From IMG/VR virus record IMGVR_UViG_3300025872_002029, positions 1 through 37,623 of that record: a stretch of DNA of 37,623 bases. One strand, 5' to 3'. Origin of the DNA: a virus. Under the pieces are notes generated by a model. That model saw nothing but the letters and a program-made list of their open reading frames with translations, ran no database searches and was not told where the DNA came from. Numbering within the stretch: position 1 is the stretch's first letter; each line of letters starts with the position of its first letter. Shown here piece by piece: positions 1-33,700 of the stretch. A program made the translations under genes and the position numbers.

Positions 1-834
1 TCCCTCCCGCTCGAGCGGAAGATCTTCGAACACTATTTGACTATTAGAATTTGTCAAATCAACAATAAGTTCTGCTAGGTCTAGCACGGTACATTCCTGC
101 GGGTTGCCGACATTGACGGGACCCGTTGCCATATTTCCGTCAAGAACAGCTGCAAGTCCAAGCACCTCGTCAGAGACATGACAAAAACTTCGTGTCTGCT
201 TCCCGTCACCAAAGACGGTTATCGGTTCATTTCTGAGAGCTTGAGATATAAACGTGTTGACGACGCGCCCGTCGTCTGGTCGCATTCTTTCGCCATATGT
301 ATTGAAAATTCTAACAATACGAATATCCAATTCATTTACACGATGATACGCCATTGTCAATGCTTCGCTAAACCGCTTTGCCTCATCATAGCAACTTCGC
401 GGGCCAATTGAACTTACGTTTCCAAAATATGATTCAGATTGTGGATGCACTAGCGGATCACCGTACACTTCACTTGTTGACGCTAGAAAAAATCTTGCGT
501 TCTGCTTGGCAGCTAGATCTAAAAGATTTCTTGTTCCGATAGATCCAACGGCAAGAATTTCAAGTGGCAACGTTAAAAAATCTAGTGGAGACGCCGGACT
601 AGCAAGGTCGAGCACCGTATCATACCAGTCATCAGCAATTTCTGGCGGCAACGGATCAACAATATCGTGCTGAACAAATCTAAATCTTGGATCTTTCTTA
701 GCATGAGAAATATTGCTGTATCTGCCAGTGACCAAATTATCTACAACTGTAACGCTGTCCCCTCGAGACAGAAACAGATCAACCAAATGTGATCCTATAA
801 ATCCGCTTCCACCAGCTACAAGATGATGAGTCAT
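1..834 (-). CDS. UDP-glucuronate decarboxylase (UDP-xylose synthase), C-terminus cut by window edge
   Basis: Member of the extended short-chain dehydrogenase/reductase family that converts UDP-glucuronate to UDP-xylose with bound NAD. About 278 residues are visible of a usual ~310, so only the C-terminal end is missing. The start ATG at 834 is followed by a Rossmann motif GGSGFIG (residues 8-14). Further along are the family-typical STSEVYGDP, a catalytic YDEAKR (YxxxK), RIFNTYGERM and a DDGRVV segment, the pattern of UXS-type decarboxylases rather than of 4-epimerases or dTDP-glucose dehydratases. The start codon overlaps the stop of the upstream UDP-glucose dehydrogenase (ATGA), so the two are probably translationally coupled and act in series. 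The product would be a pentose donor for the glycosyltransferases in the same transcript. It could instead feed a surface polysaccharide. The family call is firm; the biological use of the sugar is inferred. Confidence 0.88.
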   Translation of the reverse strand, partial: MTHHLVAGGSGFIGSHLVDLFLSRGDSVTVVDNLVTGRYSNISHAKKDPRFRFVQHDIVDPLPPEIADDWYDTVLDLASPASPLDFLTLPLEILAVGSIGTRNLLDLAAKQNARFFLASTSEVYGDPLVHPQSESYFGNVSSIGPRSCYDEAKRFSEALTMAYHRVNELDIRIVRIFNTYGERMRPDDGRVVNTFISQALRNEPITVFGDGKQTRSFCHVSDEVLGLAAVLDGNMATGPVNVGNPQECTVLDLAELIVDLTNSNSQIVFEDLPLEREG

Positions 835-2117
835 TGATGTCCAATCGCAGAATACATAACTCCTGAACCTACCCAAAGATTTTTATCAAGAATATTTCGC
901 GCATCAAAAACAACGGGGACTGACATTTCACTAGCTACGATCGACGGATCAATGTCACTAAATTCTTGCCATTCTGTCAACACCGCTAGAACATGAGCGT
1001 TCTTTATTGCTGAAACTGCTGTATCTGCAATTTGCAGATTTTCTAGATTTGCTTGATGATTTTTGCGTACCGTCGGATCATACGCTACTATTTTGACTCC
1101 ACGTTGAACTAGATTCTCAATAATTGACAACGCTGGAGAATCTCTAAGGTCGTCAGTTCCAGCTTTAAACGTCAATCCCCACACTGCAACAATCTTTTCA
1201 GTGACTCGAGAATCAATCATTGACAAAATTTTTTGCGCGATTCTCTCAAACTGGTGGTTGTTTGTCTCTATCGCACTATGCAAAAGATCAAACGAACAAT
1301 CAAGTTTTTTAGACATATGCAAAAGCGCTCGAGTATCTTTTGGAAAGCACGAACCGCCCCAGCCTGGACCTGCCTTCAGAAACTGCGAGCCTATGCGCCC
1401 GTCCAAACCCATACCAAATGAAACATCATCTATGTTGCATCCAGCATTTTCGCACATTTCAGCTACTGAATTTATAAAACTGAGTTTTACAGCTAAAAAT
1501 GCATTTGATGCGTATTTGATCAATTCAGCTGATTGAGGATCAGTGACTAGAATCTTTTTTGGAGATATTTTTGAATAGAGATCCGCAACAGTGTCTGCGG
1601 CAATAAAGTCATCACAGCCAACAACCACTCGATCAGGGTTAAAAAAGTCTGATACTGCTGAACCTTCACGTAAAAATTCTGGATTACTAACAACAGCAAC
1701 GTCCGGTCTGTTCAATGCATTTGACACGAGAACGGTTGAACCAACTGGAACTGTTGACTTGTTTACAACAATTGAATTTGGCGGAAGATACTTTGAAATC
1801 TGCTTTGCCGCATCTAAAACATAGTTTAAGTTTGCTGATCCATCGTCATTCTGCGGAGTAGGCACGCATAGAAAAGCAACATCGCAAAACTTAACAGCAT
1901 TTTCAGAACCGAGAATAAACTTTAGATTCCCATTTGAAATTCCAGATGCAACAAGATCGGCAAGTCCGTCTTCTACTATTGGAATTTTTCCACTATTGAG
2001 TTTATCTATCTTTTCTTGATCAATGTCTGCGCAGATCACATCATGACCTAGACTAGCAAAACACGCGCCTGTAGTGAGTCCGACGTATCCTGTGCCAATG
2101 ATTGCGATATTAGCCAT
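831..2117 (-). CDS. ugd: UDP-glucose 6-dehydrogenase
   Basis: Oxidises UDP-glucose to UDP-glucuronate with two NAD+. The 428 residues match the usual length of bacterial enzymes. Visible features are the N-terminal NAD site GTGYVG (8-13), NPEFLREG (145-152), the central helix with KYASNAFLAVKLSFIN, and the catalytic-cysteine motif GGSCFPKD with Cys257. The C-terminal UDP-binding domain contains WGLTFKAGTDDLRDSP. All key residues look intact, so the enzyme is probably active. It sits 3 bp after the methyltransferase gene and overlaps the decarboxylase by 4 bp. Together the two downstream genes turn host UDP-glucose into UDP-xylose. Such enzymes in phages are seen either in surface-glycan or in DNA-glycosylation contexts; the neighbouring nucleotide-modification genes favour the second. 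Confidence 0.93.
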   Translation of the reverse strand: MANIAIIGTGYVGLTTGACFASLGHDVICADIDQEKIDKLNSGKIPIVEDGLADLVASGISNGNLKFILGSENAVKFCDVAFLCVPTPQNDDGSANLNYVLDAAKQISKYLPPNSIVVNKSTVPVGSTVLVSNALNRPDVAVVSNPEFLREGSAVSDFFNPDRVVVGCDDFIAADTVADLYSKISPKKILVTDPQSAELIKYASNAFLAVKLSFINSVAEMCENAGCNIDDVSFGMGLDGRIGSQFLKAGPGWGGSCFPKDTRALLHMSKKLDCSFDLLHSAIETNNHQFERIAQKILSMIDSRVTEKIVAVWGLTFKAGTDDLRDSPALSIIENLVQRGVKIVAYDPTVRKNHQANLENLQIADTAVSAIKNAHVLAVLTEWQEFSDIDPSIVASEMSVPVVFDARNILDKNLWVGSGVMYSAIGHQ

Positions 2118-2120
2118 TGA

Positions 2121-3368
2121 TTAGTTTTTCTTGTAGTATGTTTTTTGGACGAATTGACGACTGAATCCCTTATCTGTGTCAAGAAGGTACTCTCGGTCGC
2201 CAATTTTTTGGCCAGAATCACCCAAAGGCTGGCCGTCCAACGCTGACACGACGGCTTTACCGATCCATGACGCTGCTTGAAGGGCGACGGCTTTGCCCCA
2301 TGTACTTGCTAGAGGTGAATATGTTTTTACTTCTTCAAACTTCCAATTGTCAGGAAGACCTTGTATTCTTGCAGCTTCGCGATGAGTTATTCTTCGTGGA
2401 AGTGTCGGGTGAATGACGTGGTCAAGTGCTCCGCCGGTCATTACGTTGCAGTGCGAATCTCTGTTCCAACGATACCCTGTTGAAAATCCTAGATAGTAGT
2501 CTCTTGAACGAACCTTTTGTTCTTGTGACAGCCATGATTGCGGAAATTTATTTCCGTTCTTTTCAACAGCAGCCTTTAACGCATCGCCGAGTCCCACATT
2601 TGGCTTCCATCCGTCATTTCCAAGAATGTCAAAAATATCTTGAACACGACGCATTTCCATGTTTTCTTTTACCATGTGTCCGTCAATAAGTCCGTCTGAA
2701 TTTCTAAGACTTTGCACCCACTTCGACGGAGCAATCTGTCCGTATCTTTGGCTGCCCCAAGTAACACTCAAGTCCTCGAGATCTCCAATAATGTCTGTGA
2801 TCTTTGGAAGATCATCAACTGGGTCAACGTGTACTCCAAATGGTAGACCACTCTCAATTGCGACCCAAAAATACCGCGGACGGAACGAAAATCCACCGAC
2901 TTGAAGATTATTATGCTTTACGTGGTATAGATCATATTTTTTATCAGAAAGTTCTTCAAGCATTGATCTATATTGAAGCATTACCTCGCGACCCTGCGTA
3001 TACGCCTGCTGGACGCACTCAAAGACAACAACTCTAGGACGAACTTTAGCGGCGTATCTCATGAACGCCCTCGTGTGCTCGTGTGCCGCTGATTCTGGTC
3101 CGCGGTTTGCCGGTCCAGACCATACAGACCATCCCGAACACGGAGGACACCCGACAACCGCGTCCGTGCGCGGCGTTGGCCAGTCACTTGGTTCATTGCT
3201 AAAATCAGCAGACCAATTGTCGCCAAGAAGATGTCTGTTTACTTCAGCAACAGCATTTCCAAAATTTAAAGTTCCAGTTCGCAGCTTCATCTGCATTCCG
3301 GACTGAACGAATCCGAGGCTCATAAATCCAGCCAAGCCGTTACAGTCTATAAAACTATGATCAGTCAT
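2121..3368 (-). CDS. C5-cytosine DNA methyltransferase
   Basis: 415 residues with the ordered motifs of C5-cytosine methyltransferases, which use S-adenosylmethionine to methylate cytosine in DNA. Motif I is a variant (FIDCNGLAGFMSLGF, near the N-terminus). Motif IV is GCPPCSGWS with nucleophile Cys77. Motif VI reads FECV (residues 116-119) where ENV is usual, so Asn is replaced by Cys. Motif VIII is represented by RPRYFW, motif IX by RRITHREAARIQGLPDNW and motif X by GKAVALQAASWIG. No restriction enzyme gene is next to it, so it is either an orphan protective methylase or part of base modification. It precedes the UDP-sugar genes with only 3 bp spacing. No Shine-Dalgarno is visible upstream of the start, which may indicate leaderless or coupled translation. 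The target sequence cannot be read from the protein. Confidence 0.85.
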   Translation of the reverse strand: MTDHSFIDCNGLAGFMSLGFVQSGMQMKLRTGTLNFGNAVAEVNRHLLGDNWSADFSNEPSDWPTPRTDAVVGCPPCSGWSVWSGPANRGPESAAHEHTRAFMRYAAKVRPRVVVFECVQQAYTQGREVMLQYRSMLEELSDKKYDLYHVKHNNLQVGGFSFRPRYFWVAIESGLPFGVHVDPVDDLPKITDIIGDLEDLSVTWGSQRYGQIAPSKWVQSLRNSDGLIDGHMVKENMEMRRVQDIFDILGNDGWKPNVGLGDALKAAVEKNGNKFPQSWLSQEQKVRSRDYYLGFSTGYRWNRDSHCNVMTGGALDHVIHPTLPRRITHREAARIQGLPDNWKFEEVKTYSPLASTWGKAVALQAASWIGKAVVSALDGQPLGDSGQKIGDREYLLDTDKGFSRQFVQKTYYKKN

Positions 3369-4316: not shown

Positions 4317-4570
4317 ATTTCGGCAATTTTCTTCTCTAACCGATACGCCGCGTGACGCGCCGCCGCGATATACGGCAATTTCATGTCAATACTTGAAACT
4401 ATGACATCTCCGTTGACAATATCAACGACACGCACAAGTCGACCATTGTGTATTCTACCTGCGGATGTTTTATACGCGTCGTGCCTCACGCGGAGAACAT
4501 CGCCCTCTACTACTAAAAGATCAGAAGCGTTGCACCATAGCGCACTGCTCATAAGTTCCTCGAAGGACAT
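4313..4570 (-). CDS. Hypothetical small protein
   Basis: 85 residues, not recognised. The middle part (VVEGDVLRVRHDAY, RLVRVVDIVNGDVIVSS) looks like a small beta-barrel or SH3/KOW-like fold by its alternating hydrophobic strands and glycine turns. This is a reading of pattern only. It overlaps the upstream pyrophosphatase gene by 22 bp and the downstream gene by 4 bp. Confidence 0.55.
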   Translation of the reverse strand: MSFEELMSSALWCNASDLLVVEGDVLRVRHDAYKTSAGRIHNGRLVRVVDIVNGDVIVSSIDMKLPYIAAARHAAYRLEKKIAEI

Positions 4571-5016
4571 TCTTGCTCACGACAAACCGACACGTCGTAG
4601 TCGTCAAGAGCTCTACTGCATAGTTTGCACTTTGTATTTGATGATAAAACTTTGTAGCCTATGCGTTGTCTCTTAGCATTTAGCTCCATCTTTGATACGT
4701 ATTCGCGATCAAGTTCAGCGTCTGTTGCACCTGCTGCGCACAGTATGTTGGCAACAAAATGGAGAACATCAACGCATTCCTTTATGATTTCGTGGCGATC
4801 AGCATACGGTTTGTCATGCTGCCAAGGCTTCCAAGAAATCGCCTTACGCACTTCAGCCAGTTCATCGTCAATCGCTAACATGTTCCATCTAAGATACTCA
4901 ATAAGAGATCGAATATCATCGGGGGAGTCGCTGTGAAATACGGAGTAGTCAACTCCGTACACATTTTGTTGTAATTCTTTAGTCTTGTTTAGCCATTCTT
5001 TAAACAGGATGCTCAT
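4549..5016 (-). CDS. MazG/all-alpha dUTPase-like nucleotide pyrophosphatase with C-terminal cysteine cluster
   Basis: 155 residues. The helical core has the metal-binding pattern of all-alpha NTP pyrophosphatases: DELAEVRKAISWKPW (Glu52, Glu55) followed by KECVDVLHFVANIL (Glu80, Asp83), then YVSKMELNAKRQRIGY. This family includes dUTP/dCTP pyrophosphatases and MazG and hydrolyses dNTPs to dNMP and PPi. A C-terminal CxxC and two further cysteines (130, 133, 145, 150) could form a zinc knuckle, which is not part of the minimal fold. In T4 an enzyme of this superfamily (gp56, dCTPase-dUTPase) removes dCTP so that only modified cytosine is incorporated. A similar job is plausible here given the hydroxymethylase homologue, but substrate specificity cannot be read from sequence. 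ATGA overlap with the glycosyltransferase upstream. Confidence 0.72.
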   Translation of the reverse strand: MSILFKEWLNKTKELQQNVYGVDYSVFHSDSPDDIRSLIEYLRWNMLAIDDELAEVRKAISWKPWQHDKPYADRHEIIKECVDVLHFVANILCAAGATDAELDREYVSKMELNAKRQRIGYKVLSSNTKCKLCSRALDDYDVSVCREQECPSRNL

Positions 5017-6035
5017 TTTACTTCCATAATCGTGTTTAGATGTTCCGTTATTTGATCTATACTATGCAAAACGTCAATATAAGATCGTTTTTGAGCAATT
5101 GAAAGTTCAAAAAGATCAATTGGCGACATTTCTTCTACTGCCCCAGCCAGATAGTTCCACGATTCCCCAAGAGATTTGGTAAATCTCCAATCAGTAACTA
5201 CAACAGTTCCGGAGTTTAATGCTTGCGAATACCTTGGAGACCACCATGTCACGCCGTCATTGTGCGGTCCAATAATAATTCCAATACGTCTTGTAAGTTG
5301 ATCCATGATTTTTCTACATGAATTTGTTTTCATGTCTTTTGTTTCAATGAATCTTGCACTTAAAGTATTGACAGTATTTTTTGTCCACTTAGATGACAAA
5401 TTCTCAATGATCCACGAGTGATCATGCTTACCTGTCGGAAGATTTACATGATCGTCAATGTACACTGAATCAATCTGTATTGGAATAAATGAAGATCTAA
5501 TACCATCAGGAACTCCAAAAAGTTGATTTGTCGACCACGGAAGTGTTGGATATACCATCCTAGTAGAACTTAAACTTGACACAAGTTCTATCCCACGAAA
5601 GATGTTATTTCTAACTTTTATGTCATCTTTGGCAGTTGAATAGCCAAACCGTTTAGAGTAAAAAGTCTTAAATAAAACATTTTCATCCTTCTCGATCGCT
5701 CTCAGAGCGCCGTAAATTTTCCATGGCTCAGGGGTATCTAGAAACAGTGTAACCCCGCGTCTACCGTTGCACACGCCAGCTAAGTTCAACGAATGATATG
5801 CACCGTTCGCCGAGACGCTCGTTGGAGCGCCTATCCCGATAAAAATATGACTAAACTGACTTAAATCTTTTTCCGTCAAATCAAATGTAGGTGCAGCAAT
5901 AACAACCTCGTACTTCAGTCTAGTCAAAATCTGAATTAAACCATCCGTAAATGAAGCTGTACGTTTGATAGTTTTTTCAGAATACTGATTTGCAAAAGTT
6001 CCAGTAACAAGAACTTTACGAGTCATAGAGTTCAT
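5013..6035 (-). CDS. Putative GT-B-like glycosyltransferase, second of a tandem pair
   Basis: 340 residues. The N-terminus (RKVLVTGTF) begins a Rossmann-like strand-turn, and the C-terminal half has GPHNDGVTWWSPRYSQAL followed by a strand and TDWRFTKSLGESW. The neighbouring protein has the matching series GSGWWRNRFIHAV ... LADPLEVSELGESY, so the two are diverged paralogues sharing WW, an R about three residues later, a D after a hydrophobic strand, and LGES. This arrangement fits the donor-binding half of GT-B glycosyltransferases. No signal peptide or membrane segment is present, so it is cytoplasmic. Context (UDP-sugar synthesis, hydroxymethylase homologue) suggests it could transfer a sugar to modified DNA. 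Start 6035 overlaps the upstream stop (ATGA); an in-frame ATG three codons later is an alternative. Confidence 0.6.
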   Translation of the reverse strand: MNSMTRKVLVTGTFANQYSEKTIKRTASFTDGLIQILTRLKYEVVIAAPTFDLTEKDLSQFSHIFIGIGAPTSVSANGAYHSLNLAGVCNGRRGVTLFLDTPEPWKIYGALRAIEKDENVLFKTFYSKRFGYSTAKDDIKVRNNIFRGIELVSSLSSTRMVYPTLPWSTNQLFGVPDGIRSSFIPIQIDSVYIDDHVNLPTGKHDHSWIIENLSSKWTKNTVNTLSARFIETKDMKTNSCRKIMDQLTRRIGIIIGPHNDGVTWWSPRYSQALNSGTVVVTDWRFTKSLGESWNYLAGAVEEMSPIDLFELSIAQKRSYIDVLHSIDQITEHLNTIMEVK

Positions 6036-7072
6036 TGACGCGCTTCTGCTATCGCGCGATGGACGGCGTTCATGATAGTGTCAATGACCTGCTCTTTTGG
6101 AGTTTCTTTAGAGTAAAAAACATCCCGCTGCGCGTCGGCAAGTTCACGAAGCTGACTTGTAGTCATTGATTCAATTTCACTAGGGTTCTTCAGATACGAC
6201 TCGCCTAGTTCTGAAACTTCAAGTGGATCCGCAAGCAGAATAGAACGCGTCCGTACAGCGTGGATAAACCTGTTTCTCCACCAACCACTCCCAGCGTGTG
6301 GATATTTTGCAGCAAGAACTCCCCACGAATTTGCGTATACGTCGCACAGTTCTACTTCACTTAGAACTTTTTCAGCTTTGGTTCGCTTTGTTCCGATGTA
6401 GTGGACGTTCCAGTTGAGGCCGAGCTTGTCTAGCCATTTTGTTTGATCCGACAGAGTTCCAAGAACCCATGCCCGTTCTCTATCGCTATCGTCTGGAATA
6501 CTTGTGTTGTAGTCCTGAGCAAACGCGCTAACATCAGCCCAAATCCACTCTCTCGAATTCAGGCCCTTAACAACACTCAGTCCAGTTCCCCATGAAAACT
6601 TTGGAACAATTGTTGCCGGCCACGGACGTGTGTTGAGCGCATCAATTACAGGATAGATCCTGTCAATATTTGCTGTAGCCCAATCGTGGTTTTTTCTACA
6701 TCCGACGGCAGAATCGCGAACGACTCTCGTTGGAACTTTGTGAAAAGTCTTAAGACCTGACACTATGTTGTGTGTCTGCCAATCATCAAGAAAGAACATG
6801 AGTCCGACGTTCGACTTTTTGGCTCGGCCGATTGCATCCAGTGCGCCATACAAGTACGAAGCACCTAGTGTAGCTGGACTGACCTGACCGCAAAGCAAGA
6901 GATCGTATCCAGTCAAATCTTCATTTGGTAGTACCCGTCTGTGGTCAACTTCGCAGCCTCCGAGACGGAGTATGTCTGCATACATGTCAGTTACGGCGCC
7001 GTACTTTACGTGCGTGCGTGTTGATCCTATGTGCTGCGCGGTGTATCCTGTTAGCAAAACTTTAATAGACAT
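6032..7072 (-). CDS. Putative GT-B-like glycosyltransferase, first of a tandem pair
   Basis: 346 residues from ATG at 7072. This start is preferred over an in-frame codon at 7126 because a GGAG Shine-Dalgarno lies just upstream and the longer version would enter a stable hairpin. The protein opens with SIKVLLTGYTAQHIG, a Rossmann-type start, continues with DLLLCGQVSPATLGASY and FFLDDWQ, and ends with a domain containing HAGSGWWRNRFIHAV and LADPLEVSELGESY. The latter is shared with the next gene and resembles GT-B donor-binding domains. Two such enzymes in tandem would fit sequential addition of two sugars, or two acceptor contexts. Alternatives are glycosylation of a phage or host protein. 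The glycosyltransferase call rests on fold-level pattern, not a clear family match. Confidence 0.6.
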   Translation of the reverse strand: MSIKVLLTGYTAQHIGSTRTHVKYGAVTDMYADILRLGGCEVDHRRVLPNEDLTGYDLLLCGQVSPATLGASYLYGALDAIGRAKKSNVGLMFFLDDWQTHNIVSGLKTFHKVPTRVVRDSAVGCRKNHDWATANIDRIYPVIDALNTRPWPATIVPKFSWGTGLSVVKGLNSREWIWADVSAFAQDYNTSIPDDSDRERAWVLGTLSDQTKWLDKLGLNWNVHYIGTKRTKAEKVLSEVELCDVYANSWGVLAAKYPHAGSGWWRNRFIHAVRTRSILLADPLEVSELGESYLKNPSEIESMTTSQLRELADAQRDVFYSKETPKEQVIDTIMNAVHRAIAEARQ

Positions 7073-7101: not shown

Positions 7102-7726
<625 letters not shown>

Positions 7727-11350: not shown

Positions 11351-11815
11351 TTACTGCAGAAGACGCGTTGGAGTCCATCCAGTTTTTGCCAACCTAAGAA
11401 GACCATGACGAATCGCATCAAGTGCGTGACCCTCCCCGCCGGAATGCCAATATCCGAGTTTCTTTAACGCGTCATTTGGAAACATTCGTTTTGCGTCTGC
11501 AGGCGTCTGCATTATGATTGACTCTGGGTCAATCCCGTTTGACAGCAGTAGATATCTATAGATACCGATCTGTTCGAGACTGTACGGTGACTGAGAATTT
11601 TTAATCGTCTGCGCATTGATTGTAAATCTCTCGCAGACAGCCTCAAAAATGGCATCGGTTTTCTGCGCCATAACTATCGCGGAGATTATTGAAGAGTGAT
11701 ATTCACGCATTAAATACTCTCCAGAATGCATGAGTTCTGGTTCATCTCCGCAAAATCTGAATATCGCTATTCCACTTTTCTTTCCAGGGTCTACGGAAAG
11801 TATGATTCTGTTCAT
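11351..11815 (-). CDS. RuvC-like Holliday-junction resolvase / RNase H-fold nuclease
   Basis: 154 residues from ATG at 11815. This start overlaps the upstream deaminase stop (ATGA) and places the conserved strand at the N-terminus, so it is preferred to the longer frame from 11863. MNRIILSVDPGKKSG carries the first catalytic Asp (residue 9). A central VCERFTI supplies Glu, and GHALDAIRHGL near the C-terminus supplies the last Asp. This is the arrangement of RuvC-type resolvases found in many phages, which cut four-way junctions made during recombination and before packaging. It lies in the recombination block. Confidence 0.78.
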   Translation of the reverse strand: MNRIILSVDPGKKSGIAIFRFCGDEPELMHSGEYLMREYHSSIISAIVMAQKTDAIFEAVCERFTINAQTIKNSQSPYSLEQIGIYRYLLLSNGIDPESIIMQTPADAKRMFPNDALKKLGYWHSGGEGHALDAIRHGLLRLAKTGWTPTRLLQ

Positions 11816-12138
11816 GTCCACACGACCTTTGCAACTCCAGAACGTGCGAGCATACTTTCGCACTTTTTACATGGCTTAGACGACACAGGGGTTCCGTCAG
11901 CGCTGATTCTCGCGACATACACGTGCGACCCAGATGCTTGTGTTCCAGCGGCGATAATTGCTCCAAACTCCGCATGAATATGCGAGGTTCTCCATGCAAT
12001 GCTTGGATCTCCAATTTTTTTGTTTGTTGCCATGGAAATGATGCGCCCATTTTTTACGACAACGCATCCGTGACGATGCCTGCACTTACTTTTTGCGGCA
12101 AGTTCAATAGCTTTTCCAATGTACTTATTTCTACGCAT
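11812..12138 (-). CDS. Small cytidine/deoxycytidylate deaminase-family protein
   Basis: 108 residues. Zinc and catalytic residues of the deaminase fold are present: HAE at 55-57 and PCKKC at 89-93 (Cys90, Cys93), with a core strand CVVVKNGRIIS. It is shorter than the other deaminase in the window and lacks that protein's extra cysteines. It could act on a cytosine nucleotide, on a modified base or on nucleic acid. The start codon overlaps the polymerase stop (TAATG) and its own stop overlaps the RuvC-like start, so it is translationally coupled to both. Confidence 0.75.
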   Translation of the reverse strand: MRRNKYIGKAIELAAKSKCRHRHGCVVVKNGRIISMATNKKIGDPSIAWRTSHIHAEFGAIIAAGTQASGSHVYVARISADGTPVSSKPCKKCESMLARSGVAKVVWT

Positions 12139-13961
12139 TAATACTTGTCACCCCATGTCTCTAGCGGACCGTCAATTCCCGCAGTAAGCGGGACAGCCCA
12201 TCCGTCACTTGTTGTCATGCAATCTTTTACGATACGCATAATTTCTTCTGCGTCTTTTCTTGGAGCTTGAAGAACAATTTCGTCGTGAACTGGTACGATC
12301 AAAAGCTCTGTCAAATCTGCTTGATCAAGTTTGACAAGGTTCGCTTTAAAAACCTCGGCAGCGCCACCTTGAATTAGGTAATTGACAAGAGTATACGTTC
12401 TGTTTTCGTCGCACGGAAGACGTCTTCCAGTCCAAGTAAACACGTATCCTTGACCTTCATTCCTGAGTCTTCTAGTTCCGATGTCTTCAATTTGTCGCTG
12501 AAAATGGGCCATACCAGGAAAACGACTGTCAAACGCGTCAGAAACTTGTTTCATTTGCGACTCGTGAACTCCAGCTGTTAGCGCTTGTTTAGCCACTCCA
12601 GCACCGTACAGTCTCCCATAAACCATACTTTTGATCAGTCCTCTACGTTTATCTGACTTTGCCATCGATGGATCGCGGTAGACTTCACGGCCTATTTCCG
12701 TGAAAGGATCGGATCCCGTAGCGTCAGCCAAATTAAACAGCGAGATCAAGTTGGCGTCCTGTGAAAGACTAGCAAACATTCTAAACTCGACTTGATCAAG
12801 GTCAGACGTAATAATCACATGATCTTCATCCTTTGGAATGAACGCACGGCGAACAGTTGAATCACCCTTTGGCAGTGTCTGCAGCGCAGGGTTAGTAATT
12901 GACATACGACTAGTTCTGGCGCCAAGAGTCTTTACAGACGGATGAACGACTCCATCAATTGATTCAGTAAGAAAGTTGCTAAAGTATGTATTTGCAAGCT
13001 TGTCAGCCTTGCGCTGTTTTAGCACAACATCGGCAAGTGTTCTAACGTCACTATTACCGTCGCGCAAAAGAATTTTCAATTGATCTTTGGTGCATGACTT
13101 CTGTCCAGTAGGAGTAAACTCTGTAATCTCAGCACCAAGTTGTTCAAAGAGTTTTACAAGCTGAATGTTACTTGTTATCGAAACGTTTCCGTATTTTTGA
13201 CGTATCCATGATCGGACAGAATCAGTGTACTGCGTCAGTTCATCGTATTTCTTTTTTGAATACTCGAGATCTACACGAGCGCCGTTTAGTTCCATTCTTG
13301 TGACAATACGACGAGTAGCCATTTCAAGTTCATATGCTTTACTATACGGACCGTTCGGACCGCACTTATCATAAAACATTTCCCACAATTTAGTGGTAAG
13401 AACGCAGTCGAGAGCACCGTACGCCCAGTACGGTTCAAAATTTGTAGGGACAGTTCCCCATGTCCATCCATTTTTTGCAAGTTCAACATCAAGAGTTTCT
13501 TGCAAAGCAACAGCCCTACTGTCGACATGAAGCGCTGCCAAACGTTTTAGAGCGCCAGATCCAAGAGGATCCACAACGTGCGCCATAATCATGGTGTCAT
13601 GCGCGCGGTGCCACGGAATTTTCCATCTTGACTGAATATCAAACCATCTTGCCTCAAATGCAATGTTATGGCAAATGATTTTTCCGTCAAACTTGTCCAT
13701 TGCTTCGTAGAAAACTCCAGACCATTCTTGCCATGGAATTGACCAACCTTGCTCGCCGTCTCCGATCTGCACGAGACGTAGCCTGCCATGCCACGGAGAA
13801 AGCGCATGTTCACGTGGATTGCCTGGAAGTTCTCCTGTTTCCGTGTCAACCGCGATCGCGTTATGTGGACGTCGCTGACTCAACCAATCAATAAATTCAG
13901 CTGCTTTGCTGACGTTATCTACGAGGTGAAGTTTAGTGTTCGAAAGATCCGTTGCTGTCAT
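12138..13961 (-). CDS. polA-like: Family A DNA polymerase with 3'-5' exonuclease domain
   Basis: 607 residues, the replicative polymerase of this phage. The exonuclease domain shows AVDTETG (Asp39, Glu41), HNIAFEARWF and YGALDCVLT (YxxxD). The polymerase domain shows motif A TSDLDQVEFRMFA, motif B RRGLIKSMVYGRLYGAG and motif C VPVHDEIVL. There is no 5'-3' exonuclease domain, as in T7-type enzymes. At the position equivalent to Phe762 of E. coli Pol I the residue is Tyr (as in T7), a state linked in viral ecology to fast lytic replication. An AAGG ribosome site lies before ATG at 13961, inside the end of the dCMP deaminase gene. If the phage uses modified dCTP, this is the enzyme that incorporates it. 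Confidence 0.93.
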   Translation of the reverse strand: MTATDLSNTKLHLVDNVSKAAEFIDWLSQRRPHNAIAVDTETGELPGNPREHALSPWHGRLRLVQIGDGEQGWSIPWQEWSGVFYEAMDKFDGKIICHNIAFEARWFDIQSRWKIPWHRAHDTMIMAHVVDPLGSGALKRLAALHVDSRAVALQETLDVELAKNGWTWGTVPTNFEPYWAYGALDCVLTTKLWEMFYDKCGPNGPYSKAYELEMATRRIVTRMELNGARVDLEYSKKKYDELTQYTDSVRSWIRQKYGNVSITSNIQLVKLFEQLGAEITEFTPTGQKSCTKDQLKILLRDGNSDVRTLADVVLKQRKADKLANTYFSNFLTESIDGVVHPSVKTLGARTSRMSITNPALQTLPKGDSTVRRAFIPKDEDHVIITSDLDQVEFRMFASLSQDANLISLFNLADATGSDPFTEIGREVYRDPSMAKSDKRRGLIKSMVYGRLYGAGVAKQALTAGVHESQMKQVSDAFDSRFPGMAHFQRQIEDIGTRRLRNEGQGYVFTWTGRRLPCDENRTYTLVNYLIQGGAAEVFKANLVKLDQADLTELLIVPVHDEIVLQAPRKDAEEIMRIVKDCMTTSDGWAVPLTAGIDGPLETWGDKY

Positions 13962-14436
13962 CGTCGTTGCCTTCTATAATTGTCAGTTCAATATTGCATG
14001 TTTGCAAATATTTAAAAACGAGCTCTGGCCGTCTATGCACATCATCAGGTCTAACCTTACAGACAACACGCGCCAATCCAGAATTTGAAATAAGTTTTGC
14101 ACACTGCATACAAGGCGCACTTGTGACATAGATCGTGCCGCCTAAAACACTTGAACGATCAGTATACAACAGAGCATTCGCCTCAGCGTGAATCGCTGGA
14201 CACTGATCGTACAAATTGTCTAGCGGTGCCGTCCCCTGCGCACGTTCGCACCAGTCAACGCACCATCCTTGAAAAGGCCAATCTGCCGCTGGACCATTGT
14301 ATCCAGTTGCACAGATATGCTGCCCAGACGAGACAACTACAGCGCCTAACTGGGCTCTAGTACACCTCGAGCGTTTAGCAATTGTCTCAGCAACGGCGAG
14401 CCAAGTTTTGTCCCACGAAGGCCTGTCATTAGTCAT
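13933..14436 (-). CDS. dCMP deaminase
   Basis: 167 residues from ATG at 14436. Two in-frame ATGs directly before it (14439, 14442) are alternatives, and a start at 14487 is unlikely because it lies deep in the upstream gene. The zinc site is HAEANALL (His83, Glu85) and APCMQC (Cys109, Cys112). TGYNGPA and an extra cysteine group (59, 63, 79) match deoxycytidylate deaminases, which often bind a second zinc. The reaction is dCMP to dUMP. Next to a hydroxymethylase homologue it would set the split of dCMP between the thymidine and modified-cytosine pools. It overlaps the polymerase start by 29 bp. Confidence 0.88.
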   Translation of the reverse strand: MTNDRPSWDKTWLAVAETIAKRSRCTRAQLGAVVVSSGQHICATGYNGPAADWPFQGWCVDWCERAQGTAPLDNLYDQCPAIHAEANALLYTDRSSVLGGTIYVTSAPCMQCAKLISNSGLARVVCKVRPDDVHRRPELVFKYLQTCNIELTIIEGNDDDSNGSFEH

Positions 14437-14635
14437 CATCATCCATGTCCGAGTCAATATCATATTCTTCGTCGTCTGACGCGTCACTTAGTCCCATTAT
14501 CAGCATTTTTGCTACAAGTTCAAGAGCGTCTCGCCTTGTAAAGCCAGCACGACGAAGCGTTACATACATCTCATGCATACTTATCGCCGCTTCTTCCATG
14601 GGCGACTTAAAATCAAAAGTTTCATCGTCGCCCAC
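14429..14635 (-). CDS. Small acidic protein, GTG start
   Basis: 68 residues from GTG at 14635. GAAAGG (minus strand, within 14641-14648) sits at ribosome-site distance and overlaps the stop of the hydroxymethylase homologue. The longer frame from 14695 would overlap that gene by 49 bp, so the short start is preferred. A helical middle (SPMEEAAISMHEMYVTLRR, GFTRRDALELVAKMLI) is followed by a tail made almost only of Asp, Glu and Ser. The helical part with MHEMY resembles small phage proteins found near nucleotide genes, but I assign no function. The acidic tail could mimic DNA or bind a basic partner. Confidence 0.65.
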   Translation of the reverse strand: MGDDETFDFKSPMEEAAISMHEMYVTLRRAGFTRRDALELVAKMLIMGLSDASDDEEYDIDSDMDDDD

Positions 14636-14646
14636 GGCTTGACCTT

Positions 14647-15498
14647 TCAGTGCTTGTTTTTGTAGATAGCTTGAATCATCGCGTCCGCATACCATTTTTC
14701 GTTTTCTTCAAGAAAATCGTATGATCGCGGAGATTCAACGGCACTTAATACGCGAGCTGCCGATGACGCAATACTATCCCATGAATTTCCGACAATAGTC
14801 GGCATTGCTCGCTGTATCGTCGCGTATTTCAAGTTTTCAGCTGCTGAAAAATTTGTCTCATAGATATGAAGAGAACCGACATGGTGCGCGTACATTCCTG
14901 GTTCAATTCCAAGAACGCTAGCCATTGCGATCTGGACACGAGTAAACTGAAAAAAATCGTATGCCGAGCCAAGCCAGACATCATTTGAGCGCATGTATAC
15001 GCTCATGTTTAGCTTGTTGTTACGAATCTTGAATTGATGCATCACAGTGCATGGATAATCGCGCTTATGCGGCTTGTTGTCTTTTGATGGATCCCATATC
15101 GTGACAACAGCTTGTCTGGAATCTCTATCGTTTTTCAACTTTTCAATAGCCGCGCCGTACTGACCTGCCGTGCGTGTTCCATACGAACCGTAGAAGTTTC
15201 CGTCGTCTTCAGCATATTTTTCAAACTGCGGTCCGACAGCGACAACTAGATTCGGAGTACTTAGCCCTGCAAGAAGCTGACATGATTCAACAGCAGCAAT
15301 CCCGGTGACTACGTCGCGGCCGACACCTATCGGAAGTGTAGCAAAAACATTATCAATGTAGATCACTGCGTCTTCAATCTCAAGCGTAGGCAGACCTCTA
15401 GGAGCTACGGGAGTTCCGTTTAGTAGTACGTGTCTAACTAGGTCAACATATCCGTTGACTGCATCTTTAATTTCAATAGATCTTACGGAAGTATCCAA
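14647..15498 (-). CDS. Thymidylate-synthase-family dCMP hydroxymethylase (predicted)
   Basis: 283 residues. The active-site block aligns without gaps to E. coli ThyA from the catalytic PPC/APC motif onward: YPCTVMHQF (Cys150), YMRSNDVWLG (Arg170, Asp173) and GSLHIY (His and Tyr that hold the sugar). The dUMP-binding Asn177 of ThyA, in PFNIAS, is here Asp181 (AYDFFQ). In T4 dCMP hydroxymethylase (gp42) the equivalent residue is Asp179, and changing this Asn to Asp in thymidylate synthase shifts specificity to dCMP. The enzyme is therefore predicted to act on dCMP with methylene-tetrahydrofolate, giving 5-hydroxymethyl-dCMP; 5-methyl-dCMP is the alternative. It overlaps the dNMP kinase gene by 16 bp, the next step of such a pathway. 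Confidence 0.78.
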   Translation of the reverse strand: MDTSVRSIEIKDAVNGYVDLVRHVLLNGTPVAPRGLPTLEIEDAVIYIDNVFATLPIGVGRDVVTGIAAVESCQLLAGLSTPNLVVAVGPQFEKYAEDDGNFYGSYGTRTAGQYGAAIEKLKNDRDSRQAVVTIWDPSKDNKPHKRDYPCTVMHQFKIRNNKLNMSVYMRSNDVWLGSAYDFFQFTRVQIAMASVLGIEPGMYAHHVGSLHIYETNFSAAENLKYATIQRAMPTIVGNSWDSIASSAARVLSAVESPRSYDFLEENEKWYADAMIQAIYKNKH

Positions 15499-16484
15499 TG
15501 ACTGTATCTTTCTATTTCTGCCGTTATTCTATTAGAAAATGCAGCTATCGCCAGCCCATACTGTCCCTTATCGTGGTGGTGAAATCTGCGAACATACTGA
15601 GGATGCGGAAGTACAGCATATTCTGGAAAATGAATTCCGTTTAAGTAAATTTGCCGTTCTGCCTCTCTACCGAGCGCAACGACGGGTGGTTTTCCAAGCG
15701 TATCCCACAAGGAAAACAGTCGTTCTCCGTAGATGTCACCAGCGTTGATGATTCCCACGGTTCTCCATATTTTTTCTGGAAGAGCGGACATCAGATACTC
15801 GCCTGAATTGCCGTCAATTGGCATGAACGGTAGGATTGTTTTTCCAGGGTTGTTTCTTCGATCGCCGACAAGAAGTACGTCTGGCTCAGGACTTCCGATG
15901 TATTCTGGAAACTGAAACAGTTTTTCAACGTCTTGCATTTTTCTCTTTGCCCTAAGAACTATGTTCTTGGCGGCTTGTTTGATCCCCTCGGCTCCGTCTG
16001 CTGGACGTATCACCGTTACTGGATCACACGTGTTTTTTTGAGCTATACTATAAAGTTTTATGATTTGGTCAAGTTCATCAATATTGACAAAATCGTCCCC
16101 TCGGGAAATCAATCGACTTTTAATGACATCTGTTGGCTGGTCAATAAAAAATTGCGAGACGCCTCTCGAGGAGAGAAACAGTTCTACCCAGCGCCAACCA
16201 GATCTACCAAGAAGTCCAAATCCATCTTTATTAGTTGTCGGACGTTTTATCGGCGCGTAGGTAACTTCGCCCCAGTGCCATCTATCAGCGACAACATCGA
16301 CTTTCTTTAAGTCAAAAAGTTCAACAGATGTCGCGTATTCGTCTAGTACCCAGCGTCTGGTGTTGCTCTCTGGTTTGCCTTTGTGAAACCGTACCGGATC
16401 GCTATCAATTTCCTTACAGACAGCGTCGGCAAGCGAAGATTTCCCAGAACCGTCTGGCCCCTCAATCACGATAAACATTATCAC
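15483..16484 (-). CDS. Deoxynucleotide kinase fused to a uracil-DNA-glycosylase-like domain
   Basis: 333 residues in two parts. Residues 1 to ~185 are a P-loop kinase of the thymidylate-kinase type, with Walker A EGPDGSGKSS (8-17), DRWHWGEVTYAP (67-78) and a Lid-like SRGDD. Residues ~195-333 look like a family 4/5-type UDG fold: VLLVGDRR (203-210), a GNSG turn, VALGREA (269-275) and LPHPQYVRR (292-300). The acidic catalytic residues usual after the first motif are not evident, so this half may bind or sense a base rather than excise it. The kinase could phosphorylate hydroxymethyl-dCMP, the T4 gp1 role. A GGAG ribosome site and a candidate promoter precede the ATG at 16484. Confidence 0.7.
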   Translation of the reverse strand: MIMFIVIEGPDGSGKSSLADAVCKEIDSDPVRFHKGKPESNTRRWVLDEYATSVELFDLKKVDVVADRWHWGEVTYAPIKRPTTNKDGFGLLGRSGWRWVELFLSSRGVSQFFIDQPTDVIKSRLISRGDDFVNIDELDQIIKLYSIAQKNTCDPVTVIRPADGAEGIKQAAKNIVLRAKRKMQDVEKLFQFPEYIGSPEPDVLLVGDRRNNPGKTILPFMPIDGNSGEYLMSALPEKIWRTVGIINAGDIYGERLFSLWDTLGKPPVVALGREAERQIYLNGIHFPEYAVLPHPQYVRRFHHHDKGQYGLAIAAFSNRITAEIERYSHWILP

Positions 16485-27774: not shown

Positions 27775-30700
27775 CTACGCGGCGCCTCGTCGGAGTTCAA
27801 ACGCAAGTTGACGCGAAACAATCGCCGCGAGCTCAACCTCGTCCATACCCTTTGAAGCGTTGATGGTCATATTTACAATGATCGGCTGCGTCTGCTGTTG
27901 CTGCTGCTGTTGCGCTGATTGAAGTGCCGCTATCGGACGCTTAAATGCGTTGATACTTGTGACGCTGGCAAGATTCTGCGTCGCCATGACTAGATCAGCA
28001 AGACCGGATTGCTGCATTAGTTCCATAGCTCTTGCAGGTCTTGTTAGCGGAATCACAGCCTCTTTGCCCGCTTCTCCGATCATAGCGAGCGTCGGTTTGT
28101 CGACGATAGCACCTTTTGCTAATAGAGGAATATCTGGGACATCAAATCTCGATCCACCGATAAACGGAACCCATGAAGGAACCGTAAATGATAGTCTTCC
28201 GACGGTGTTATTCCATAGACTTGCTACACCGTTGAACGCGCCTTTAGCCGCGTTCTTTATTCCGTCAAACAGTCCACTGGCAAATCTTCCAATTCTTGTT
28301 GGAATATTCTGGACAAACTCGACAATATTGTTGATTTTTTCTGCAACCCAGTCTTTTGCCTGAGTTATCTTGTCCTTTAGCCACTTAAAACCTTCACCAA
28401 AAACATACGAAATTCTTCCAGGAAGATTTGTAAAGAATCCGACTATGCCGTCGATCACATTTGAAACAAATGTCTTAACGTTCGTGAATACTCCGCTAAC
28501 CCACGAATAAACATTGCTTATCGCGGTCCTTATTCCTCCCCAGACGGTATCAAAGACTGTTTTAATTCCATTCCAAGCTGTTTCAAACGCAGTCTTAATT
28601 CCGGTCCATGCTGGTTTGATAACGTTGTTCCACACAAAGTTAATTGCTGTAGAAATCGCGTCCCATACCGTTGCGAATATAGTACGGATACCTTCCCATG
28701 CTGTACTAAACACGGTTGACATTCCGTCCCATACAGGCTTGATAACATTTTCCCAAACAAAGCTTATTGCTGTGGAAATAATGTTCCAGACGGTTTCAAA
28801 ATATGTCTTGATACCTTCCCAAGCAACACCGAACACCGTTGACATGGCGTCCCAGATCGGCTTGATGATGTTATCCCAAACAAAGCTTATTGCTCCTGAG
28901 ATGATGTCCCAGACGGTTTCAAAATATGTCTTGATACCTTCCCAAGCAACACCGAACACCGTTGACATGGCGTCCCAGATCGGCTTGATGATACTGTTCC
29001 AGACAAATGAAACTGATGTGGAAATAATGTTCCAGACGGTTTCAAAATAGAGTTTGATACCTTCCCAAGCAACACCGAACACCGTTGACATGGCGTCCCA
29101 GATCGGCTTGATAATGTTATCCCAAACAAAGCTTATTGCTCCTGAGATGATGTCCCAGACGGTTTCAAAATATGTCTTGATACCTTCCCAAGCAACACCG
29201 AACACCGTTGACATGGCGTCCCAGATCGGCTTGATGATGTTATCCCAAACAAAGCTTATTGCTGTGGAAATAATGTTCCAGACGGTTTCAAAATAGAGTT
29301 TGATACCTTCCCAAGCAACACCGAACACCGTTGACATGGCGTCCCAGATCGGCTTGATGACGTTGTTCCAGTAGAAACTTATTGCGCCGGTGATGATGTT
29401 CCACACCGTTGTGAAGTACGTCTTGATACCTTCCCAAGCAAGGCCAAAAACTGTCGACATCGCGTCCCAGATCGGCTTGATGACGTTGTTCCAGACAAAT
29501 GAAACTGATGTTGAAATAATGTTCCATACGGTTTCAAAATATGTCTTGATACCTGACCAAGCAAGGCCAAAGACTGTCGACATCGCGTCCCAGATCGGCT
29601 TGATGACGTTGTTCCAGTAGAAACTTATTGCGCCGGTGATGATGTTCCACACCGTTGTGAAGTACGCTTTAATGCCAGACCAAGCAAAACTAAACACTGT
29701 AGACATCGCTGACCAGATAGGTTTGATGACATTATTCCAAACAAACGAAATTGCTGTTGAAATAGTTGTCCAAGCGACGTTAAATACAGTCTTTATTACG
29801 CTCCAGGCAGCTGAAAATCCTACTGATATTCCTTCCCAGATAGGTTTAATAGCTTTCCAGAACTTGTCAAGACCAGTTTTTACGATCTTAATAGCTCCAG
29901 TTGCAGCGCTACCGAAACCATCCCAAGCGTTGTTAAAGAAGTACGCGATTCCGTCAAAGACGGACTTAACAGCTTCTCCAAATGCAATTATTGCATTGTA
30001 TATCGGATCCCACACAGAGTGGAATGTAGAACTTATTGTGTTCCACGTTGACTCAAACGTACTGGATAACGCGTCCCAAACGGGTTTAATGACATTGTTC
30101 CAGGCAAAATCAATCGCTGTTGAGATCGCGCCCCAAACGGTGTCAAACGCAGTCTTGATTCCAGTCCAAGCTACGCCGAACGCTGTGGACATGGCGTCCC
30201 ATATAGGCTTGATGACGTTGTTCCAGACAAATGAAACTGATGTTGAAATAATGTTCCATACCGTCGTGAAGTACGCCTTGATACCTTCCCAAGCAACACC
30301 GAACACCGTTGACATGGCGTCCCAGATCGGTTGAATAACGTTGTTCCAGTAGAAACTTATCGCGCCGGTGATGATGTCCCATATAGTCGTGAAGTACGCT
30401 TTAATGCCAGACCAAGCCAAACTAAATATTTCCGACATCGCATTCCAGATTGGCTTGATGACATTATTCCAAACAAATGAAATTGACGACGAGATGCCAT
30501 CCCAGATTGCGGTAAACACTGATGCGATATCTTCCCACGATGCCGTAAACACCGCGTAGATCGCATTCCAGATTGGCTTGATGACGTTGTCCCAAACAAA
30601 CGAAATCGATGATGAAATCATTGTCCAGACTAAATTAAAAGCTCTTCTTATTCCTTCCCAAACAAAACCAAAAATTGCCAACATCGCATTGAACGCTGGC

Positions 30701-33700
30701 TTAATGACGTATTCCCATGCAAACCGAATTTGGAACGTGATCAGGTCCCATATCGGACCGAACACGGCGCTGATGGCCGTCCATACAGTCTTAAAAACAG
30801 TCAATATTGATTCAAATACAGGTCTAATGACACTGTTCCAAGCAAAACTAATTGCTGATGAGATCGCGTTCCAAACGGTATCAAATATGTTTTTGATGCC
30901 ATTCCAGAAATTTGATAGTAACTCTCGACCTTTTTCAATAAGCGACGAATCAAGAATCCCAAGCCATCCGAGAATTTTTGATGGAATGCTTAAGAAGAAA
31001 CTTGCGATGTCTCCCATAACCGAGACAAGCCCGTTTAGGAAACCGAGAATAATGTTTTTACCAAAGTCAAGAAATACAGTTGACGGTGAAGAGATGCCAA
31101 AGATCGACTTAACGGCGTTGATGATCCATTCACCGATACCAGTGAAAAAATCGTAGATCCATTTCGCGCCAGCAACAAGACCTTTCCATAGTCCTTGGAT
31201 AATTGACATGCCAAAACTTCCGAGCATGTCTTTTATTCCGTTAAACACAAACTTAAGCGCGTCTTTCAACGACGAGAACGCTTTACCAAAATGCTTTACG
31301 GCACCGCTGACGTCTCCACGCAGAAGCGCAAAGATTCCTTGAACAACTTTCCACACTGACTGGAATACCTTCGCAATGGCGCCGACGGTGTTGATGAGAA
31401 CCTTTATTGCCCTCGACACGATGTCGATCGCGCCGACAAAAGCTACCTTAAAGATCGGAACAATGTATTTTGCTATAAAGTCACCGATTGATTTAAAAAC
31501 ATTTTTTACGTTTTTTACGACAGTCTCTGTCCCGCCGAAAGATTTAAGAACTTCATTTATTGTTTGCTTTATAGATTCAAACGCTTTTTTAAGATTTCCC
31601 CAGACGACATCAATTAGATCTTTTATTGCTTTTCTAAAATTTTCACTGTTTTTGTACGCCAGGACGATTACAGCAATAAACGCAGCAACACCAGCAACAA
31701 TTCCGGCGAGCGCTCCTCCGCCGATGCCAAAGTTTGCAAAAACTAGTCGAGCTGCCGCGATTTTGTCTCTTAAAGTTGTGACAATGTCGATAGCTTTAAA
31801 AAAGTAACCAGAGAATGCGTTAAAGACAAATGTTGTAGCGTTGTTCATCAACCGAAGCGCCTTGACAACTCCCATGATACCAGCGCTAAAGAGAAGTACT
31901 CTTTGAACAACTTCATTACCAAATACAGCGTTGATAATCTTTAAACCAGCGGTGAGAGTGCCAAAAAAGTACTGCAGTGACGCTGTCTCGGTAAAGTTTT
32001 TTATGAATTTAAGAAACTCATCGGCAAATTTTGTTAAATACGGCGAACCAGACGTGAGAGTGTCAATTATTGTTCCAAGGGTCGGCATCATGGCAGACAG
32101 CCCCTGAGCTGTCTTTCCAATCCCTGGATTGTCTCCAAGTTTCAAGAACTCTTTAACAAGCGAGACAACAAGTTTACTTATTTCATGAGTGTTCTTTGCA
32201 GTATCGATAAAAAACTGCTGAAGTCGTCCGCTATCTCCAAGTTTTTTTGTAAATTCTTCAAACTTTTGAGTTGAAGCCTCGAATGCATCAAGCAAAAGTT
32301 GACCGCCACTTCCAGGTCCGGAAGCTGCTTTACCGATATTTTTGATTGCTTCATACAAGTTTCTAAAAATTGAACCTAGTTGCGCAGCAACATCACCGGC
32401 TTGGTTGAACATGCTGGTAAGTTCACCGGTTGAATTCTTAAATTCAAATGTTTCTCTCCACCCATCTGTTAGGGTGACGACCCAATCTGAGAAGCGTCTA
32501 ATTAGTGGATCAGCTGCTGTGAGAAGCGATAAAAATACGTCATAAAGATTACCAGCAGCATCCCCCATTCGGCGGATAACATATGTGTTTGTATCGCCGA
32601 TCTTCCCAAGTTCATCAAGATTTGATGACTCGGTGACAACGTTTGAAATGTTGACTGCTGCTTCACCTAAAGCTTTTCCAGTTTCACGCAGAATTGGAAT
32701 AAGACGTGGAAATAGGTTATCAACCAGATTTTTAATTGCGACAGTTAAAAGAGGGAATAGATCCTTGCCAGCAGCTGCCTTGAGTTCTTTAATTTTGTCT
32801 TGTATTGAAACTATGTATCGAACAAACGCCTTAGCTTCTTCAGATAGTCCAGCAAGTGGGTCAACTCCACCACCGCCAGCACCAGCGGCTTTCTTTTTCG
32901 CGTCCTCGAGCCGTTTTAACGCGTCTTCTTCAGCGCGCAGCGCATCACGCTCTGCCCGCGCCTTAGCGTCAGTGGCTTCCTGCACAGCTTCTGTTGCGTT
33001 GACAACCTCTCTTGATCCCTCAACGCCAGCTTTATTTGCTTTTTCAGTTTCTTTCGCAAGATCTGAATTTCGATCTTTTGCTCGACGCAGATTAAGATCT
33101 GCCTCAGCGTACGCAAGTTCTGCTTCACGTCGCGCGCGTGAGTTTGGTGGAAGATCTTGAACTCGAGCAAGACGCTCTCGTGCTTTTTCAAGTTCAATTG
33201 ATGCTTTCTTTTCAGAAATAGCCGCGTCTTCGGCATCAAAGTTTAACTGTTGAAGACTTTCAGCTGCTGTTTTACGGGCCTCAGTCAGCCGATCCTCGGC
33301 GTCAGCAAGGTTTTTACTCGCTCTTGCGAGAGCCTCTCTGTTTGACTCAAGAACTCTTGCAAGATTCTTTTCTGCATCTTCGATTTGACGAGCTTGGTCA
33401 GCTCCACCACCGCCGCCGCCGCCGGTTTTTTGCTTCATTAAGCCTTTTATTGCGGCCCCAACGCCGCTAAACGCTAATTTTGCGGTGAGGGCTGCTTGTC
33501 CTATCGCGGCAAAAATTCCTGGAAGAACAATCAACGCCGGCACAGCTGCGCCGACCTGCATCACCAACGCTGAAAGACCGGAAACTAACGCAGAAATTCC
33601 ACTTATAGCGACGCTAATGGCTGGACCAACAAAATAGCCAGTAGTTACTAGCTTAGCAAAGGCTTCGTTCGCGGCGAGAGCTTCTTGTCTAAACTTTTGT

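Follow-up and report, generated by a model that had tools for sequence, protein, structure and literature searches.

Homologues of thymidylate synthase have been used to recognize phages with modified cytosine. In the MetaGPA study, positions 147 and 177 best separated modified from unmodified phage contigs, and Asp177 flagged the homologues belonging to cytosine-modified phage DNA; thymidylate synthases with an Asn-to-Asp change, cited there, yield 5-methyl-dCMP (PMC8670742). In the ternary complex of T4 gp42, Asp171 (D169 in E. coli ThyA, Asp173 in the enzyme described here) is part of the pterin hydrogen-bond network (PMC6400193), while MilA prefers CMP through Lys133 and Ala176 (PMC5175136). 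Pentoses on phage cytosine are already known from RB69 (PMC6024577) and Thanatos (PMC12838424). Of 37 restriction enzymes, only TasI and Tru1I, which recognize sites without G or C, cut the DNA of Stenotrophomonas phage AXL3, a phage with an Asp-type homologue (gp28); the authors of that study took gp28 for an ordinary thymidylate synthase (PMC7504290). Here we describe an Asp-type enzyme in a 37.6-kb viral contig (the window). Quite probably, it is an actinobacteriophage dCMP 5-hydroxymethylase that uses folate and supplies hydroxymethylcytosine (hmC), which would then be glycosylated, probably with a pentose.

The gene is an intact open reading frame on the minus strand, read from 15498 to 14647 from a TTG start and encoding 283 amino acids, and its N-terminus lines up in alignment with homologues sharing the same start point. 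It is no chance reading frame, since dozens of contigs retain it at full length with 60–72% identity. With a PF00303 match of 85.8 bits (cut-off 24.3), together with C150 and E71, the protein belongs to the thymidylate synthase superfamily. Its PHROGs matches are families named thymidylate synthase and close relatives do carry that label, just as the first-pass annotation had expected of a plain annotation. Structure prediction, a check which that annotation had proposed, gave an AlphaFold model (pLDDT 88.7) whose best PDB match in Foldseek is the cytidylate enzyme MilA (TM 0.81/0.73), followed by AfhB, a flavin dCMP hydroxylase from phage HY126 (PDB 9iqu/9iqc; TM 0.65/0.77), and then by thymidylate synthases. 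In the phylogenetic tree, T4 gp42 stands on a very long branch outside the clade of our protein, and the tree gives no decision on a single origin of the Asp at the base-reading site.

The protein was aligned with E. coli ThyA (NC_000913), T4 gp42 (NC_000866) and SPO1 gp29 (NC_011421). Against ThyA there are no gaps from C150 (C146 in E. coli) to H211/Y213 (H207/Y209), and D181 falls on N177, the Asn with which thymidylate synthase (EC 2.1.1.45) reads uracil; the gap-free placement from Cys150 claimed in the first-pass annotation is thus borne out as far as Y213. In the alignment with gp42, no gap follows the Cys until past D181, which lies on D179, and the T4 enzyme does, as that annotation had said, have the Asp that recognizes cytosine N3/N4 at the same site. 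Asp occupies this position in 94 of the 96 compared sequences and is invariant in 21 close relatives; Asn was found only in E. coli ThyA and in SPO1 gp29, a dUMP hydroxymethylase. All catalytic and nucleotide-binding residues are kept (R34, E71, Y106, R128, C150, R170, S171, D173, G177, H211 and Y213). The second discriminating position (147 in E. coli ThyA) is occupied by Thr151, a residue shared with T4 gp42 and MilA, whereas ThyA has His147 there. At Trp80 of ThyA the enzyme has F92, in a column that is a poorly alignable loop; Trp80 was rejected as a marker of hydroxymethyl or methyl chemistry, T4 gp42 retaining the Trp. In place of the Lys133 and Ala176 that suit MilA to ribonucleotides, the enzyme has R128 and S171, like deoxyribonucleotide enzymes.

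Cytosine is therefore favored over uracil, because of D181, T151, the structural match to MilA, the presence in the operon of a dCMP deaminase, an NTP pyrophosphatase and glycosyltransferases resembling T4 beta-glucosyltransferase (BGT), and the restriction resistance of AXL3. On these grounds dCMP, proposed as substrate from the start, is a strongly supported prediction. Of all the observations, the AXL3 restriction pattern comes closest to testing the Asp branch by experiment; it fits a modified cytosine, but a guanine modification would look similar. The paper on Pseudoxanthomonas phage PW916 contains no restriction data.

Table 1. Features of the window connected with the predicted cytosine modification.
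Feature	Position	Strand	Basis
Predicted dCMP 5-hydroxymethylase, thymidylate-synthase fold	14647..15498	(-)	PF00303, PHROGs, Foldseek, active-site residues
Asp181 codon, for the residue that discriminates cytosine from uracil (Ec N177, T4 D179, MilA D186)	14956..14958	(-)	Alignments; coordinates computed from ORF start
Codon of catalytic Cys150 (Ec C146, T4 C148)	15049..15051	(-)	Alignments
P-loop deoxynucleoside monophosphate kinase-like protein with conserved extra C-terminal domain, overlapping the enzyme gene; candidate hm-dCMP kinase	15483..16484	(-)	phrog thymidylate kinase 1.5e-15; YorR kinase 3.5e-9; adjoins enzyme in relatives
dCMP deaminase	13933..14487	(-)	PF00383 4.1e-18; phrog_174 8e-45
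DNA polymerase I (PolA), expected to incorporate the modified nucleotide	12138..13961	(-)	PF00476 1.8e-55
Second small cytidine/dCMP deaminase-like protein	11812..12138	(-)	PF00383 4.4e-13; in some relatives only
GT1: GT-B protein, T4 beta-glucosyltransferase fold, candidate hmC-DNA glycosyltransferase	6032..7072	(-)	AlphaFold pLDDT 88.2; Foldseek
GT2: GT1 paralogue, second candidate glycosyltransferase	5013..6035	(-)	25% identity to GT1, E 1.6e-13; conserved position
dUTPase_2-family pyrophosphatase, candidate dCTP/dUTP pyrophosphatase	4549..5016	(-)	PF08761 2.5e-11
C5-cytosine DNA methyltransferase homologue	2121..3368	(-)	PF00145 4.6e-20; M.HaeIII 6.4e-10; kept in relatives
UDP-glucose 6-dehydrogenase (UGD)	831..2117	(-)	PF03721 1.2e-61, PF00984, PF03720; phrog_9148 1.2e-104
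UDP-glucuronate decarboxylase / UDP-xylose synthase (UXS), cut by window edge	1..834	(-)	Human UXS1 2b69/4gll ~2e-83, next family 5e-27

The first-pass annotation gave neither strand nor genomic setting. The gene sits in a conserved actinophage replication/modification operon (Table 1), whose order recurs in dozens of contigs: kinase with extra domain, enzyme, dCMP deaminase, PolA, in some cases the second deaminase, RuvC, helicase, Cas4-like nuclease, RecA-like protein, ssDNA-binding protein, a variable glycosyltransferase locus, dUTPase_2, a DUF6378 protein and the C5-methyltransferase. The same virus is found in two other assemblies (L002, L003), and one reads beyond the left end of the window (L016). 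Actinomycetia phage DSL-LC01 (129 kb) has gene order in common with the window and an enzyme of 64% identity, and the Gordonia phages GodonK, Sixama and GMA2 possess the kinase-enzyme-deaminase-PolA core, with GT1 homologues elsewhere in the genome.

Some features of the neighboring genes may be recorded here. The C-terminal ~140 residues of the kinase, with the motifs GDRRN...LPFMP...HPQYVRRF, look by eye like a uracil-DNA-glycosylase fold and also occur in the AXL3 kinase; a profile search with this part returned no matches. The C5-methyltransferase homologue has the motif PPC and 'ECV' replacing ENV, and is also present in L005, L139-L143 and L145-L148; its presence is odd if every cytosine is already hydroxymethylated. 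The ssDNA-binding protein (7157-7370, minus strand) carries a long terminal Ala-Pro repeat encoded by repetitive DNA, which varies between assemblies, the L003 copy being 20 residues shorter. The tape-measure gene (27775-33861, minus strand) contains many near-identical repeats (WDAMSTVFGVAWEGIK...).

At the variable locus, GT1 had no matches in Pfam, and in PHROGs it matched an unnamed family and, marginally, one other. Its sequence profile found nothing in the PDB, and the signal came from the fold search alone, in which T4 beta-glucosyltransferase (1qkj) ranked top of 350,542 PDB chains (E 1e-7, TM 0.62), placing the GT1 model in the BGT GT-B fold; T4 alpha-glucosyltransferase and a glycosyltransferase of phage HY126 are on the same list. 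Direct comparison of GT1 with T4 BGT by sequence (BLAST, hhalign) gave no convincing homology (profile probability 3%). GT1-family genes are present in 30 of 33 contigs carrying the Asp enzyme, the other three presumably stopping short of the locus. A GT1 homologue in Morganella phage Rgz1 (23% identity, E 2e-16) is flanked by an arabinose-5-phosphate isomerase gene and a sugar-nucleotide gene; the block resembles the RB69 pentose module and also holds an AfhB-like dCMP hydroxylase. That GT1 and GT2 could put sugar on the hmC of phage DNA is moderately supported.

The sugar-donor genes of the window, UGD and UXS, overlap, and the complete UXS is found in L016 (8991-9944). UXS gave one weak match among 46 relatives and UGD none among 33, the same UGD query recovering the other assembly of this virus; no UDP-xylose 4-epimerase was recognised. 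Relatives have other genes at the glycosyltransferase locus. Seven loci, DSL-LC01 included, carry a UDP-galactopyranose mutase, seen between GT1 and GT2 in L005 (28963-30060), L023-L027 and L082. The authors of the DSL-LC01 genome read this gene as a cell-wall gene (PMC10611076); its position between GT1 and GT2 suggests DNA glycosylation with galactofuranose. Another type occurs at three loci in the BLAST census and, on inspection, in L139/L141: here an APH-type kinase, a HAD phosphatase and a nucleotidyltransferase accompany an unrelated glycosyltransferase-like protein. Between the ssDNA-binding protein and GT2, L139-L144 have this alternative glycosyltransferase-like protein, most of them with the three accompanying genes, like the nucleotide-sugar salvage module of RB69 and Thanatos. 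The L142 nucleotidyltransferase was tried as a relative of that of RB69 and gave no match, and for the L142 kinase a weak match in the kinase motif was all that emerged (E 3e-4). At the remaining loci GT2 is joined by GT1 or GT1b, and no donor gene was recognised. Overlapping assemblies were counted separately, so that all these locus numbers are not independent.

The fold of the enzyme, its active-site residues, the operon, the BGT fold of GT1 and the identities of UGD and UXS are established at the level of sequence or predicted model, and with them a pathway can be proposed, in which substrate, product, sugar and the role of each helper gene are predictions. The pyrophosphatase would break dCTP down to dCMP and, together with the dCMP deaminase, drain the dCTP and dUTP pools. 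Cys150 would attack C6 of dCMP, with Asp181 binding and protonating cytosine N3; methylene-THF would give the one-carbon unit and water, not hydride, would finish the reaction to 5-hydroxymethyl-dCMP. The neighboring kinase may phosphorylate this product, which with host kinases would become 5hm-dCTP, to be incorporated by PolA as hmC in the phage DNA. Finally, GT1 and GT2 would add one or two sugars, likely a pentose donated by UDP-xylose, itself the product of the phage UGD and UXS; it is gene content that points to xylose.

Asp181 reports the base, cytosine over uracil, and not the chemistry (hydroxymethyl, methyl or hydroxy), because the methylating Asn-to-Asp mutants and the AfhB-like gp33 of Rgz1 have Asp too. 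The residue rule used in the first-pass annotation is already in print (PMC8670742). We consider a dCMP 5-methyltransferase of the phage Xp12 kind very unlikely; such an enzyme also depends on folate but ends with hydride transfer, giving 5-methyl-dCMP and 5mC DNA. Besides those mutants, a 5mC phage is known, yet a methyl group offers no hydroxyl to the BGT-fold glycosyltransferases at the linked locus, and MilA, the best structural match, is a hydroxymethylase. A flavin-dependent dCMP 5-hydroxylase of the AfhB type, making 5-hydroxycytosine for later glycosylation, is likewise improbable. AfhB shares the fold and ranks second among the structural matches, and gp33 of Rgz1, closely homologous to PDB 9iqu, bears the same Asp at the base-reading site and shares a gene block with a GT1 homologue. 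However, gp33 has N, V and F where D169, G173 and Y209 would stand, whereas our enzyme retains all three (D173, G177 and Y213), like folate users, and MilA is clearly nearer to it than AfhB in both sequence and structure. Since these residues are kept, folate use appears the more likely chemistry. That the protein is an ordinary thymidylate synthase or a dUMP hydroxymethylase, making T or hmU with the Asp merely tolerated, seems to us extremely unlikely. The labels of the relatives agree with it and the adjoining dCMP deaminase could feed dUMP, but T4 likewise pairs a deaminase with gp42, the uracil enzymes compared have Asn while Asp is invariant across divergent phages, and the AXL3 restriction pattern implicates G/C, not T. 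Furthermore, AXL3 and GMA2 also carry ThyX, so the Asp enzyme is not needed for dTMP in these two; that the Gordonia and AXL3 relatives simply make dTMP was rejected on the Asp, and for GMA2 and AXL3 on ThyX as well. A 5-hydroxymethyl product is thus moderately supported.

The pentose step has a competitor of its own, compatible with a dCMP hydroxymethylase: UGD and UXS might serve a surface or fibre glycan, leaving the DNA with another sugar or with bare hmC. UGD and UXS were missing from the relatives searched and no UDP-xylose 4-epimerase was recognised, so a surface glycan may be where their product goes; relatives without UGD/UXS do keep GT1/GT2, and L016 has a separate glycosyltransferase close to the fibre genes. 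Nonetheless, UGD and UXS lie on the same strand and in the same block as the conserved glycosyltransferase, pyrophosphatase and methyltransferase genes, and relatives hold other nucleotide-sugar genes exactly between or beside the glycosyltransferases; we find the surface-glycan explanation rather unlikely, though far from negligible. The proposed glycosylation of hmC in DNA allows a wider, tentative suggestion, which we regard as possible but would not yet press. A fixed core (hydroxymethylase, kinase, deaminase, PolA and GT2) with interchangeable donor modules might give this freshwater actinobacteriophage clade an exchangeable sugar on its hmC DNA, from UDP-xylose here (UGD plus UXS), galactofuranose in others (UDP-galactopyranose mutase) and another sugar where the kinase/HAD/nucleotidyltransferase module is found; xylosyl- or galactofuranosyl-hmC has not yet been seen in DNA.

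In the open literature searched, we found no phage that combines an Asp-type enzyme with UGD and UXS as a donor route, and no donor-module exchange at one glycosyltransferase locus among related actinophages; provisionally, the UGD-UXS arrangement and the donor exchange look new, the Asp enzyme type itself being already known. The assignment corrects wrong thymidylate synthase annotations across actinobacteriophages, including GodonK, Sixama, GMA2 and others, and in the cultured Gordonia phages with the Asp enzyme and GT1 homologues cytosine hypermodification is now directly testable. Sugar on DNA would hide viral DNA from bacterial defences. If the swap is real, related phages change their DNA sugar by exchanging donor genes, which would bear on evasion of type IV restriction and CRISPR, and new DNA glycosyltransferases could become available as reagents.

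Compared with known systems, AXL3 and PW916 both have the Asp enzyme, dCMP deaminase and pyrophosphohydrolase, and AXL3 also a kinase with a similar C-terminal part and a methyltransferase near the Asp enzyme, but identity is ~30% and no GT1/GT2 was seen in the region read. The CMP hydroxymethylases MilA and BcmA share the base-site Asp, and MilA is the nearest solved structure, differing in its ribonucleotide pair (Lys133/Ala176 for Arg128/Ser171). The Asp177 homologues of MetaGPA (PMC8670742) have the same residue signature and, as partner domains, dCMP deaminase and pyrophosphohydrolase; they are paired with carbamoyltransferase, whereas here BGT-like glycosyltransferases and nucleotide-sugar genes are found. 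RB69 (ara-hmC) and Thanatos (pentose-C) resemble the proposed system in a pentose on modified cytosine and phage-encoded donor genes, and HY126 (AfhB), known here from PDB titles alone, is listed among such phages. Their routes use isomerase, kinase and nucleotidyltransferase rather than UGD and UXS, and RB69 ORF003c, tried and rejected as a relative of GT1 (E 0.34), is not detectably related to it. With T4 gp42 the enzyme shares the fold, the Cys nucleophile, the base-site Asp and the Thr after the Cys, at ~27% identity; in the tree gp42, on its very long branch, does not group with it. Both systems have deaminase and pyrophosphatase partners and a BGT-fold glycosyltransferase (T4 has alpha- and beta-glucosyltransferases), but T4 draws on host-made UDP-glucose, while this phage has its own UGD and UXS, a PolA-type polymerase and an actinobacterial host.
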